Positions 2,385-49,548 of a DNA stretch of 64,000 nt are shown here, piece after piece. Made by a program: the position numbers and the translations under genes. This DNA comes from Calothrix brevissima NIES-22 (GTDB lineage Bacteria > Cyanobacteriota > Cyanobacteriia > Cyanobacteriales > Nostocaceae): assembly GCF_002367995.1 (NCBI RefSeq), contig NZ_AP018207.1:3905083-3969082 (forward strand), written 5' to 3'. The notes beneath the pieces were generated by a model, which was not told the origin of the DNA, searched no databases, and saw only the letters and a list, made by a program, of their open reading frames with translations. The first letter of the stretch is position 1; each line of letters begins with the position of its first letter.

Positions 2385-2570
2385 CATACGTGTCAACTTA
2401 AGCTAAAAGCTATATAGGGTGCAAAACCCTCTCGCCCTCATCCCCTAACCCCTTCTCCCTTGGGATAAGGGGAATTTAATAAAAGGCTCCCCTCTCCCTC
2501 TGGGAGAGGGGCTGGGGGTGAGGGCAAAACCTTTCCACCAAGCGGGTTTCACGTTAAGTTGACACCAATG
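2385..2570. mobile_element. MITE-1 copy A, with 9-bp target duplication
   Basis: The termini are CATACGTGTCAAC and GTTGACACCAATG, imperfect inverted repeats. The element is flanked by a perfect 9-bp direct repeat GACACTGCC (2376-2384 and 2571-2579). Inside are two hairpins, one of CTTCTCCC/GGGATAAGG type and one of CTCTCCC/GGGAGAGG type, pointing outward with CCCTCATCCCC and GGGGGTGAGGG. There is no coding capacity. Other copies lie at 21236, 25608, 31280 and 49355, with degenerate ends at 38787. Confidence 0.85.
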
Positions 2571-21235: not shown

Positions 21236-21435
21236 CATTGGTGTCAACTTAACGTGAAACTCGCTTGGTTGCAAGGTTTCGCCCTCACCCCCAGCCCCTC
21301 TCCCTCAGGGAGAGGGGAGCAAGAAGAGATTCAATTCCCCTTCTCCCTCAGGGAGAAGGGGTTAGGGGATGAGGGCGCGAGGGTTTTTGTACAACACGCG
21401 CTGTATATAGCTTTTAGCTTAAGTTGACAGGTATG
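21236..21435. mobile_element. MITE-1 copy B
   Basis: Starts CATTGGTGTCAACTTAACG and ends GCTTAAGTTGACAGGTATG, with the same two internal hairpins as copy A in inverted orientation. The right flank GGCATTGCC resembles the usual target, while the left flank (CGAGAGATT) does not match it. So the duplication is lost or the copy has recombined. Confidence 0.8.
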
Positions 21436-25607: not shown

Positions 25608-25801
25608 CAGTGGTGTCAACTTAACGTGAAACCCGCTTGGTTGCAAGGTTTTGCCCTCACCCCCAGCCCCTCTCCCTCCGGGCGAGGGGAGCAAGAGATT
25701 CAATTCCTCTTCTCCCTGGGGGAGAAGGGGTTAGGGGATGAGGGCGAGGGATTTGTACAACACCCGCCGTATATAGCTTTTAGCTTAAGTTGACACGTAT
25801 G
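25608..25801. mobile_element. MITE-1 copy C, with near-perfect 9-bp target duplication
   Basis: Ends CAGTGGTGTCAAC and GTTGACACGTATG. Flanks GGCAGTTCC (25599-25607) and GGCAGTGCC (25802-25810) agree at 8 of 9 bases. Internal hairpins are as in the other copies. It lies 115 bases upstream of the CHAT gene start and may sit in its promoter region. Confidence 0.85.
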
Positions 25802-25853
25802 GGCAGTGCCATGCCCCTAGGGACATCCAATTTTTTAAATACCCAATCAATTT

Positions 25854-25909
25854 GTAGTGCGAGCGTCTCGCTCGCTTTAGAACAACAGCGAGCAAGATGC
25901 TCGCACTAC
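25854..25909. repeat. 56-bp palindromic repeat
   Basis: Arms GTAGTGCGAGC...GCGAGC and GCGAGC...GCTCGCACTAC form a long imperfect hairpin with the loop TTTAGAACAACA. GTAGTGCGAGC repeats are familiar dispersed elements in Nostoc-type genomes. It is not followed by a T run in either direction that would make it a convincing terminator. Confidence 0.7.
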
Positions 25910-25938
25910 GGAATATGGGTAATTTATTTTTTGTTAAG

Positions 25939-26211
25939 TCAATAGTGGCTATCCTCAACTCAGTAGCGGCTATTCTCAACTCAATAGTGGCTTTCCTTAA
26001 CTCAATAGTGGCTTTGCTCAACTCAATAGTGGCTTTGCTCAACTCAATAGTGGCTATTCTCAACTCAATAGTGGCTTTGCTCAACTCAATAGTGGCTATT
26101 CTCAACTCAATAGTGGCTTTCCTTAACTCAATAGTGGCTTTCCTTAACTCAATAGTGGCTTTCCTTAACTCAATAGTGGCTTTCCTTAACTCAGTAGTGG
26201 CTTTGCTCAAC
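25939..26211. repeat. 21-nt tandem array, about 13 units
   Basis: The unit is close to TCAATAGTGGCTTTGCTCAAC, repeated about 13 times. Variation is concentrated in the TTTGCTC/ATTCTC/TTTCCTT segment. Because the unit is a multiple of three, both strands stay open: the plus strand would read LNSIVAL-type heptads and the minus strand ATIELRK-type heptads. Neither frame has an identifiable start, and both run through unrelated dispersed repeats at their ends, so I call it non-coding. It has no spacers and is not CRISPR. Confidence 0.85.
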
Positions 26212-26222
26212 TCAATATACAA

Positions 26223-26352
26223 GGGTGTGTTGTCGCGCAGCGCAACGCACCCTTCGGGTTCAGCAGTCGCCTGGGTCGGGCTAACCCTCCCGCAGCGCTG
26301 CTTCACCGTCAAAAATCTAAGGTGCGTTAGCCTACGGCATAACACACCCTAC
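26223..26352. repeat. Two facing 32-bp hairpin repeats (copies 4 and 5) with an intervening SDR
   Basis: Copy 4 (26223-26251, minus orientation, GTTGCGC arms) and copy 5 (26321-26352, plus orientation, GTTAGCC arms) face each other. Between them, about 26256-26310 holds a CGGGTTCAGCAGTCGCC...GCAGCGCTGCTTCACCG element, related to the one at about 32708-32763. Confidence 0.75.
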
Positions 26353-26532
26353 TGTGAATTTATATTTTTTCATATACATTGAATTTTTCTCACCGACTTA
26401 CTTAATTAGACACCGAAATATTACCGAATATTAGCTGAAAATTGTCCGTTCAAAAACTGCTATTTATACTGAACCAGATTTCGATTTAATTAAGGCAAGC
26501 TATGTTTATAAGTATTTTATCAGGGCACATTT

Positions 26533-26940: not shown

Positions 26941-27034
26941 AATGAGACTGTTGGTTAGTTAATGAAGGGTTAAACCCCTATCCCTAAAAGCTTGGCAATA
27001 AGGTTAGTCAAGGATAAGATGAGTTGATTTTCAT

Positions 27035-27547
27035 ATGGAATATGAACCCTCACCCCTACCCTCTCCCAGAGGGAGAGGGAGTAAAGAAAAAGAACAAGAA
27101 CAAGAGAATCAACAAAAATATAAAAATCACTCTTATCCCCCTCTACCTGAGGGAGAGGGGCTAGGGGTGAGGGCAGAAATTGCGAAATTAGCAGGTAGCA
27201 ACCGACAAATTCCCGATATATTATTAGAACGCGCTCGCGAATTAAGAAAACAACAAACACCAGCAGAAAAAATATTGTGGGAATGTTTAAGAAATCGACG
27301 TTTATTAAATAAAAAATTTCGCAGACAACATAATATTGATAGATATATTGTTGATTTTTATTGTCATGAAAAATCACTAATTATCGAGGTAGATGGTAAT
27401 ATTCATGCAAGTCAGCAAACTGAAGATTATATTAGAGAAAACTGGTTGCTATCTCATCAATTTACTGTTATTCGCTTTAGTAATGAGCAAATATTTAATG
27501 ATATCGAGTCAGTTTTACAGACAATTGCTCAAGCCCTCATCCCCTAA
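27035..27547 (+). CDS. DUF559 (Vsr/PD-(D/E)XK-like) nuclease-fold protein bounded by palindromic repeats
   Basis: The conserved part begins around residue 55: LLERARELRKQQTPAEKILW and FRRQHNIDRYIVDFYCHEK, then LIIEVDGNIHASQQTEDY (EVDG is the E-x-D of the nuclease-like core) and TVIRFSNEQIF. This is the DUF559 family, related to very-short-patch repair endonucleases. The first roughly 45 residues (PSPLPSPRGRGS, PPLPEGEGLGVRA) are only translated repeat DNA. A GTG at 27167, in frame and preceded by a purine-rich stretch, is therefore a likelier start. The stop codon also lies in a repeat. So the gene body is precisely framed by hairpin repeats identical in type to the MITE-1 interior. Confidence 0.75.
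   Translation: MEYEPSPLPSPRGRGSKEKEQEQENQQKYKNHSYPPLPEGEGLGVRAEIAKLAGSNRQIPDILLERARELRKQQTPAEKILWECLRNRRLLNKKFRRQHNIDRYIVDFYCHEKSLIIEVDGNIHASQQTEDYIRENWLLSHQFTVIRFSNEQIFNDIESVLQTIAQALIP
27048..27086. repeat. DUF559-flanking palindrome P1
   Basis: CCCTCACCCCTACC leads into the hairpin CCCTCTCCC-aga-GGGAGAGGG. The same unit type makes up the interior of MITE-1. Confidence 0.85.
27135..27174. repeat. DUF559-flanking palindrome P2
   Basis: Hairpin CCCCCTCTACC-tga-GGGAGAGGGG followed by CTAGGGGTGAGGGC, inverted relative to P1. P1 and P2 together look like a MITE-1 core without the GTGTCAAC ends. An in-frame GTG for the DUF559 protein lies in its last bases. Confidence 0.8.
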
Positions 27548-27576
27548 CCCCTTCTCCCTAAGGGAGAAGGGGAACT
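27537..27576. repeat. DUF559-flanking palindrome P3
   Basis: CCCTCATCCCCTAACC leads into CCTTCTCCCT-AAGGGAGAAGG. It carries the DUF559 stop codon (the TAA inside CCCCTAACC) and may also act as the transcript end. Confidence 0.85.
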
Positions 27577-28973: not shown

Positions 28974-29290
28974 AATTACTGTAGTTCAGTGCAGCCAGTT
29001 AAAACACCAACCATAGCATTAACATATCAACAGTCAAGGGGTATTTAGTCATTGGTCATTTGTCATTGGTCATTTGTCATTGGTCATTTGTCATTTGTTA
29101 GAGACGCGATTAATCGCGTCTTTACAATTGTCCTCCTTGTCCTCCTTGTCCTCCTTGTCCTCCTTGTCCTCCTTGTCCTCCTTGTCCTCCTTGTCCTCCT
29201 TGTCCTCCTTGTCCTCCTTGTCCTCCTTGTCCTCCTTGTCCTCCTTGTCCTCCTTATCCTCCTTGTCCCCCTTGTCTCCTACGCCCCATG
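28974..29290. repeat. Composite: heptamer tandem, GACGCGATTAATCGCGTC palindrome and nine-base tandem
   Basis: CATTGGTCATTTGT heptamer array (about 29050-29098), then AGACGCGATTAATCGCGTCT palindrome (about 29101-29121), TTACAATTG, then about 15 copies of the 9-mer TCCTCCTTG (29131 to about 29268) decaying into CCCCCTTGTCTCC. The same order of parts recurs at 44165 and 62518. Open frames across it (LLVLLVLL and SSLSSLSS repeats) are artefacts of the tandem. Confidence 0.85.
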
Positions 29291-30037
29291 CCCATTTTCT
29301 AATAATGTTTTATGGTACACAAATGACTTCATGATTATCCGTTGATAATAGTAGAGTCGGTTGATTGATGATCATCTTTGAGAATTAACTGAGGAGAATT
29401 ACTTAGTATATATTCGCTATTTTCTCAGCATTTTCTTGCAGAAATTGTGGGCATTGAAACATTAATTATAACGGCGAAAACTGGTTGACAAGCTAAAGCG
29501 TTTTTGCAATACTTTAACAAAGCTTTATCCTAGTTTTCTAAGTTATTTAGATAGTCGCTGCATGATTGGGGAGATTTTTGTATTAATAATGCTACTAAAT
29601 TCTTAGAGTATTTACTGTACTAAATGCAAACAATAAAACTAAGGATAATTATTGGTAGCGCTAGGTTAATTTAACCCTAGAAAAAAGTAATTTTTCTGTT
29701 CTTGCAAAGTGTAATCAATCGCATACAGCTAATCAGACTTATCCTATTCATTTCCGTCTGAAGATTGAGGAGTAAAATCACCTCATACGGGTGACTTATT
29801 TACTGGGTATTATTGCACAATTCATTCTTGCCATTGATTTAACAAAAAAACTTGGCTAAGTCTCCTCTCAATAATTCATAGGATTTCTACTTGATTTCTT
29901 AACTACAAATAGCGTGTCAGTAATCTAATTTCAGTCATTCTGTCAATCTTTGGTAATTCTCATAACAAATTACCAATGACAAATGACAAATGACAAATTT
30001 TTAACTTATCCCTACTCAGCACAATCGGAATAAAAAT
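29291..30037. other. Upstream region of hgdB
   Basis: About 750 AT-rich bases with no gene. A CAAATGA heptamer array lies at about 29975-29998, just ahead of hgdB. The region should hold the promoter of the hgdBC-hgdA-hglT group. A GTATTTACTGTAC motif at 29608-29620 resembles an NtcA box but has N7 rather than N8 spacing. Confidence 0.5.
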
Positions 30038-49354: not shown

Positions 49355-49548
49355 CATTGGTGTCAACTTAAACTAAAAGCTATATACGGCGCGTGTTATA
49401 CAAAAACCCTTGCCCTCATCCCCTCACCCCTTCTCCCTCAGGAGAAGGGGAATTAAATCTCTTGCTCCCCTCTCCCTGAGGGAGAGGGGCTGGGGGTGAG
49501 GGTATAACCTATTCACCAAGAGGGTTTCACATTAAGTTGACACCAATG
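49355..49548. mobile_element. MITE-1 copy E, with near-perfect 9-bp target duplication
   Basis: Ends CATTGGTGTCAACTTAA and TTAAGTTGACACCAATG. Flanks GGCAGTGCC (49346-49354) and GGCAGTGCT (49549-49557) agree at 8 of 9 bases. Deleting the element and one flank rebuilds GGCATGGCAGTGCCATGCCC, the dispersed palindrome seen empty elsewhere. Confidence 0.9.

Follow-up and report, generated by a model that had tools for sequence, protein, structure and literature searches.

The window, namely the whole stretch of 64,000 nucleotides analysed here (Calothrix brevissima NIES-22, contig NZ_AP018207.1, positions 3,905,083 to 3,969,082 of the forward strand), contains a DUF559 gene bracketed by short hairpin units. 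The locus is probably a minimal mobile element, in which the DUF559 nuclease would cut its own triplex-type units and move gene-bearing and gene-less copies. The comparisons with relatives of the gene point to the bracketed DUF559 gene as a very small mobile element of a type not recognised before.

The DUF559 gene of the window and its hairpins

The ORF at 27035-27547 on the forward strand (170 aa) matched PF04480 (DUF559) with an E-value of 2e-36 and 124.6 bits, the curated cut-off being 20.6. The features of the locus were as follows.

27033..27576, + strand: whole element (P1 and P2 units, DUF559 gene, and P3); left end uncertain by about 20 nt
27035..27547, + strand: DUF559 (PF04480) protein, 170 aa; DUF559 domain at residues 65-168, N-terminal part repeat-encoded
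27047..27079, - strand: P1, tag 27047-27058 and hairpin 27059-27079, read from the sequence
27139..27173, + strand: P2, hairpin 27139-27159 and third strand GGGGTGAGGG; one arm mismatch
27534..27572, - strand: P3, tag CCCTCATCCCCTAA and hairpin 27548-27572, read from the sequence

The sequence-only reading of this DNA had described the gene as framed by hairpins, and this observation was confirmed, with P1 and P2 before the domain and P3 at the 3' end. The hairpin arms are CCCTCTCCC/GGGAGAGGG in P1 and CCCCTTCTCCCT/AGGGAGAAGGGG in P3. The third strand of P1 points away from the gene and P1 and P2 form a divergent, REPIN-like pair (both orientations read from the sequence); the third strands of P2 and P3 point toward the gene. 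The placement of the N-terminal frame and the stop codon within the repeats also held: the ATG lies 12 nt upstream of the P1 tag, the P1-P2 stretch encodes approximately the first 50 residues, and the stop codon TAA (27545-27547) is inside the P3 tag. An in-frame GTG at 27167 inside P2 could serve as an alternative start. The frame through P1/P2 was open in the four relatives examined (three sister species and one genome of another genus), among which it differed in length with all changes in-frame. The sequence-only reading had mentioned repeat-encoded N-termini for DUF559 genes elsewhere, and repeat-like N-terminal frames, putatively coding, were seen at other DUF559 loci. The dN/dS of the window family was 0.25 against G314, a genome of another genus, and on this estimate the family is under purifying selection relative to that genome; a value of 1.1 was obtained for one close pair, in which synonymous changes were few.

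Hairpins of this kind also occurred without a gene in the window, as follows (no strand assigned).

2452..2522: hairpin at 2492-2508, gene-less; CTTCTCCC half-site at a distance of 40 nt and a GGGGTGAG tag; P2-like score 29/44
21284..21358: gene-less hairpin pair; halves scoring 38/42 against P3 and 34/44 against P2
25656..25727: gene-less hairpin pair; halves scoring 34/42 against P3 and 30/44 against P2
31329..31406: gene-less hairpin and second half-site, with tags on both sides
49423..49500: gene-less hairpin and second half-site; P2-like half 33/44

P2 and P3 each resemble one half of the hairpin pairs found at other places in the window and the genome, the best P3 copy scoring 38/42. The pattern CTYYCCCN{0,8}GGGRRAG was present in 61 copies in the 9.26-Mb genome, compared with 0 for the mirror control. 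Several of the genomic palindromes are oppositely oriented pairs, and those at L006, L007, and L041 sit within longer repeats. Three full-length DUF559 genes are present in the genome, each with an arm type of its own. The window also contains a repeat of approximately 218 bp (26000-26218) with many copies at 83-94% identity within the same genus, and repetitive open frames at 25785-26382 and 29052-29345 (ELRKATI-type on the - strand, leucine- or serine-rich on the + strand), which are probably simple-sequence DNA.

Generality of the hairpin bracket

A hairpin scanner (all-pyrimidine left arm, perfect pairing, loop of 2-8) was run around DUF559 genes in sets of loci. A 40-locus set was hand-picked and scanned with an arm of at least 8; 33 of its loci belong to class Cyanobacteriia, most frames are short, and the borders are approximate. 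An 80-locus set from named genomes consisted of the 80 loci, out of 559, that were most similar to a single query, with an arm of at least 7, and a gammaproteobacterial set consisted of the best 60 DUF559 matches by E-value in an even draw of 229 genomes. The latter two overlap in one locus (L101 = L242), and G349, the centre of the gammaproteobacterial draw, was taken from the 80-locus set.

In the 80-locus set, a hairpin was found upstream (within 300 nt) at 65 of 77 loci and downstream (within 200 nt) at 60 of 77; hairpins were present on both sides at 49 of 74 and on neither at 4 of 74 (L088, L103, L113, and L145). Their density was 7.3/kb at -100..0 and 11.9/kb at 0..+50, falling to 0-0.13/kb beyond 500 nt, and the purine-arm mirror control gave 8 matches in total. 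Among the 57 gammaproteobacterial loci off contig ends, 51 had an upstream hairpin, 45 a downstream hairpin, and 42 both, with a background density of 0.099/kb.

The earlier reading had proposed comparing hairpins at both borders of DUF559 genes with those near other genes. When one rule was applied to the 80-locus set, both-sided brackets were observed at 47 of 71 DUF559 genes versus 7 of 863 control ORFs (at least 100 aa), and the proposal was thus borne out in named genomes. It was likewise borne out in the gammaproteobacterial draw by the 42 of 57 loci above and by the control families: any hairpin was found at 0 of 26 Vsr genes, and Y1_Tnp genes showed both-sided hairpins at 0 of 24 and a one-sided hairpin at 1. 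These controls started from 30 loci each, of which 4 and 6, respectively, were too short and were dropped; base 1501 was taken as the start of the match throughout, an assumption that fails where a contig end truncates the locus. The enrichment was weaker in cyanobacteria, where the strict scan of the 40-locus set found hairpins on at least one side at 17 of 40 loci and on both sides at 11 of 40.

Of the 179 DUF559 genes placed in a tree, 108 had hairpins on both sides, 39 on one side, and 26 on none, and 6 were at an edge. With the scan loosened to arms of at least 6 and loops up to 25, DNA away from the gene gave 0-0.45/kb, and those 26 genes had hairpins on both sides in 17 cases, on one side in 4, and on none in 5. 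A typical case carried CCCCCTCCTCGCTTGCGGGGAGGGGG upstream and the reverse complement of CCCCCTCCTCGCTTGCGGGGAGGGGG downstream, and L113, hairpin-less in the looser scan, had inverted ends with an imperfect hairpin. According to titles and lineages, the DUF559 loci came from Pseudomonadota, Chloroflexota, Omnitrophota, Doudnabacteria, Chlamydiota, Elusimicrobiota, Thermodesulfobacteriota, Myxococcota, Clostridia, Ignavibacteriales, Gastranaerophilales/Cyanobacteriota, and Deinococcota, some of these groups being represented by one locus each. Hairpin bracketing of DUF559 is general, holding for many related genes spread over roughly twelve bacterial phyla. Chance occurrence was ruled out by the mirror control, the spatial controls, the control ORFs, and the control families; the hairpins are not due to chance because the mirror pattern was absent from the genome with the 61 copies and because hairpin density was confined to the gene edges.

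Several loci departed from the common arrangement. A cyanobacterial DUF559 clade (L043-L047, L058, L070, and L259; several with N-terminal RGTTxEIE) was mostly devoid of pyrimidine-arm hairpins, and some of its members adjoin CCCCCAAAATTGGGGG-type palindromes, perhaps another unit type. Tandem arrays were found upstream of the gene at L128 (five hairpin copies, approximately 33 nt spacing) and downstream of it at L348 (four copies of CCTCTCCATTGGAGAGG, approximately 132 nt spacing). In family f31 of the host's phylum, small genomes had up to 8 DUF559 matches each, and several of these matches lay in reading frames from 400 to more than 900 codons long, which are possibly fusions.

The unit as a hairpin with a third strand

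We defined the third strand as a run beside the hairpin that mirrors the purine arm; a T facing an A was accepted. With the match threshold set at 0.88, a third strand was detected on the gene-facing side of 82 of 127 units and on the outer side of 2, and in 68 of the 82 the spacer before it was exactly three bases (for example TTA, CTA, or CCG). When the loci were pooled, the closest unit upstream of the gene faced it in 97 cases versus 11 (28 unscored), and the closest one downstream did so in 79 versus 8 (36 unscored or double).

The third strand varied along with the arm (GGGAGAGGG, GGGGGAAGG, GGGAGGGG, GGGGAGGA, and others). For all 127 units, the arm scored 0.850 with its own flank, compared with a shuffled mean of 0.766 and a maximum of 0.788 in 2000 shuffles; in a selected subset of 86 units already at 0.7 or higher, the values were 0.986 with the own tag and 0.841 with tags of other-armed units. 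This covariation supports the view that the unit actually folds into a triplex.

The available text of Holder et al. 2015 (PMC4666352) describes an intrastrand triplex motif that is abundant in enterobacteria and cyanobacteria, has loops of the TTA and CCG types, and forms inverted A+B pairs. A C-rich hairpin with a third strand across a 3-nt loop, by which that paper recognises the motif, was also what we found here, P2 and P3 having been read directly; judged by its sequence, the DUF559-flanking unit is this motif. That text reports no association of the motifs with mobile elements, and the words nuclease and endonuclease are absent from it (PMC4666352). In Klebsiella, a unit next to a DUF559 match that carries no annotation showed, among the matches listed, 90-98% identity over 41-54 bp to copies in E. 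coli records. In dispersed gene-less pairs, the third strand was outside in 17, inside in 10, and other or unscored in 30.

Dispersed copies and mobility

The element of the window was present in the sister species G302, G305, and G299 and absent at the locus in G300, G304, and G301; in G303, the right-end hairpin alone remained. G314 carries the stretch 27033-27576 with 88% identity, but at a site not orthologous to the window locus; identity stopped there on the right at window position 27576. The three sister species without the element gave no clean empty site for this locus, since the intergenic DNA is too diverged for the exact junction to be read.

In the L055 family, no two of the eight copies had both flanks in common. 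Most of their ends were an 83-97-bp unit pair ending GACCT..AGGTC, shortened or missing at L052 (right), L063 (left), and L066, and gene-less 83-97-bp pairs with similar ends were dispersed. In eight orthologous right flanks without an L055-type element, homology began at 4-5 bp (two flanks) or 18 bp (six flanks) from the end of the element. In Deinococcus psychrotolerans, a 495-bp element with 56-bp inverted ends lay between paaD and paaZ, and it was absent in Deinococcus QL22.

Genome G415 had three element copies of 532, 532, and 494 bp, in each of which the DUF559 domain took up approximately 315 bp. Their inverted ends contain the unit and measured 79 bp in L212, with 77 identical. The flanking 9-mers were GTGCAGATT/GTGCAGATT, GTTTGTAAC/GTTTGTAAC, and GTTTTTAAC/GTTTGTAAC, namely 9-bp target duplications that are exact in two copies and 8/9 in the third; further copies of the outer ends were not found in that draft genome. 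An automatic scan of 65 loci with strong inverted ends, among which the window copy is not included, detected border direct repeats of at least 7 bp at one locus (L212), the duplications of the two other G415 copies being read by hand, and found no target duplications outside G415. Because duplications were seen at 1 of the 65 loci, the insertion chemistry may vary by family, or G415 may represent a captured MITE. For 129 loci, terminal inverted repeats had a median score of 22 between the own ends and 11 between ends of different loci.

Other comparisons were less direct. K. aerogenes had a degenerate unit at the site where K. pneumoniae carries a DUF559 gene. Sinorhizobium K101 versus S. meliloti was considered as an empty site and rejected, the difference being instead an internal deletion of the DUF559 gene. 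In S. meliloti Ak57 (L263 2560-2800), the DUF559 gene is shortened by an internal deletion ending at the unit, possibly a snapshot of how a gene-less copy originates. An empty allele was not found in Azospirillum, where the stretch was present in 7 of 7 records, and for Sphingomonas yqeY-dnaG no informative ortholog was found among the matches listed (20 of 55 records). The suggestion of a mobility link between hairpins and nuclease gene gained support: the window, Deinococcus, and G415 comparisons show that the gene and its hairpins are mobile.

Coupling of gene, unit, and genome

Between genomes, the same arm was found in 57% of pairs with protein identity of at least 60%, 21% at 45-60%, and 9% below 45%, and arm type correlated with protein similarity (Mantel r 0.25, p 0.0005, n = 173, with L101/L242, one locus, counted twice). 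Among 32 pairs of same-genome paralogues below 60% identity, 28% had the arm in common. Arm (unit) type follows the DUF559 gene lineage in part.

Presence of the gene was also compared with hairpin number, and none of the following tests is phylogeny-corrected. In Gammaproteobacteria, at least 10 excess hairpins were found in 39 of 52 genomes with a full DUF559 gene versus 18 of 177 without (odds ratio 26.5, p 3e-19). In 139 Cyanobacteriia, the median was 3.1/Mb with and 0/Mb without a full DUF559 gene (p 1.5e-8), and the co-occurrence was weaker in Cyanobacteriia of at least 4 Mb (p 0.0096). Hairpin-rich genomes (at least 20 excess) without a full DUF559 gene numbered 14 in Gammaproteobacteria and 6 in Cyanobacteriia. 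Full DUF559 genes with few hairpins of the searched pattern occurred in 9 of 52 Gammaproteobacteria (fewer than 5) and 19 of 69 Cyanobacteriia (at most 3); part of these genomes carry arms that the pattern cannot match (G415: 0 matches, arm CCCCCTCCT). Some Herbaspirillum genomes with a bracketed DUF559 gene had just 3-6 such hairpins. Across 46 named genomes, matching hairpins ranged from 2 to 650 per genome, and those of the mirror control from 0 to 73. The E. coli control genome had no DUF559 match, despite the 23 motif copies given for E. coli K-12 in the available text of Holder et al. (PMC4666352).

The enzyme

The predicted model of the window protein had a mean pLDDT of 81, lower in the repeat-encoded part. 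In Foldseek searches, the model resembled the DUF559 structure 3hrl and also 3r3p, the catalytic domain of the homing endonuclease I-Bth0305I (E 1.5e-4), and gave a weak match to 1vsr (E 0.53); the predicted fold thus appears close to a homing endonuclease domain. Pfam matches of the protein were DUF559, weakly PF18741, and nothing else, Vsr (PF03852) giving no match at E 0.001. In the ExDGxxH stretch, E, D, G, and H were invariant in 179 of 179 DUF559 proteins, and we infer that these residues are catalytic, an assignment made by analogy with Vsr and EDxHD enzymes. As far as the available parts of these papers go, a DUF559 gene has already been placed under EDxHD (PMC9403480), and a mismatch-repair role has been proposed for the Caulobacter DUF559 protein VsrA (PMC12907096).

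Proposed mechanism and alternative explanations

Association, orientation, covariation, and mobility were observed in the sequences, and DUF559 is the candidate catalyst of the movement. A DUF559 gene between intrastrand triplex units would be one element copy. The nuclease would most likely recognise the unit extruded in single-stranded or supercoiled DNA, presumably as a triplex rather than a bare hairpin; it would bind the unit and cut at or beside it, and the cut would drive movement of the gene-bearing copy and of short gene-less unit pairs alike, the latter being non-autonomous (REPIN- or MITE-like) derivatives. The best and most economical account likens the element to REPIN/RAYT or IS/MITE systems, with an unrelated enzyme that resembles homing endonucleases.

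The units might instead be transposon ends moved in trans by an ordinary transposase, with DUF559 carried along as cargo, such as a nuclease for repair or defence. The 9-bp duplications and long outer inverted ends of G415 resemble those of DDE-type IS elements or MITEs, the G415 family may have arisen when a MITE captured a DUF559 gene, and unit pairs in the window's genome sit within a longer repeat. We nevertheless consider this explanation unlikely: the bracket is rare at other ORFs, it is kept across distant DUF559 lineages with different arms, the G415 draft assembly yielded no further outer-end copy, and G433 and G425 have DUF559 genes and hairpins with no Y1 transposase match in a search for the Y1 family. 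A random drop of the gene into host repeats was also considered and is unlikely because the orientation is polarised and same-genome paralogues can differ in arm. Homing or gene conversion, in which DUF559 cuts gene-less unit sites and repair inserts the gene between pre-existing repeats, would make the repeats targets and portable homology spread by other means. The closeness of the fold to I-Bth0305I, the position of the L055-family gene between two unit pairs, and the degenerate unit of K. aerogenes are in its favour, but the element occurs at a site that is unit-free in the compared allele (Deinococcus QL22), G415 copies have target duplications, and the spread of gene-less pairs is left unexplained, which makes it a doubtful explanation, still less probable than a cargo role.

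Hairpins near both gene ends could also act as insulators or terminators that silence or end transcription around a toxic nuclease gene, and palindromes of the same kind in Enterobacter sp. 638 are presumed terminators in the available part of one paper (PMC2869309). This is very improbable. The terminator reading was ruled out by the downstream hairpins, 0 of 100 of which are followed by TTTT within 9 nt; it needs neither a third strand nor a two-sided gene-facing orientation, and it does not fit the number of hairpins per genome or the hairpin-less Vsr genes.

With movement by the nuclease itself as the preferred reading, DUF559 is likely the driver of a repeat family that has had no known agent of spread, and, being found in many phyla, it is a concrete enzyme candidate for the spread of triplex-motif repeats. 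We lean slightly toward the broader proposal that DUF559 proteins are founders of a new mobile-element nuclease superfamily acting on triplex ends and the source of triplex-motif repeats in hundreds of genomes, gene-less E. coli included. If true, this would give a function to the Pfam 'unknown function' family DUF559, define a mobile-element class whose sole protein is a PD-(D/E)XK-type nuclease on triplex-forming ends, and account for one source of intergenic and in-frame repeat insertions. A literature search, with subscription papers mostly and bioRxiv preprints wholly outside its coverage, found no link between DUF559 and such repeats.

Comparison with known systems

The likeness to REP sequences and their RAYT transposases, which the sequence-only reading had raised, stands as an analogy and not as homology. 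As in REP/REPIN-RAYT systems, short palindromic units with an asymmetric tag form inverted doublets, are dispersed, and flank a nuclease gene in inverted orientation, with a unit type that partly matches the gene lineage. However, the enzyme here is a DUF559 (PD-(D/E)XK/Vsr-like) protein, unlike the Y1 HUH transposase of RAYTs, and the tag, as read by eye, is a third strand mirroring the arm rather than GTAG/CGTC. Furthermore, G415 has three gene-bearing copies, whereas RAYTs are described as single copy in the available text of PMC3116915.

Inverted ends, a single internal gene, gene-less derivatives, and the 9-bp duplications of G415 are shared with IS elements and MITEs, but the window protein has no known transposase domain, and the duplications were seen in the G415 family only. 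The predicted catalytic-domain fold resembles that of I-Bth0305I (EDxHD); DUF559 differs from EDxHD and Vsr enzymes in being a stand-alone gene between unit repeats, Vsr genes being without hairpins. With the triplex motifs or PIT elements (Hoyne; Holder 2015, PMC4666352, as far as its available text goes), the units share the hairpin, the third strand, the 3-nt second loop, and the inverted pairs, and they differ from them in that they bracket DUF559 genes.
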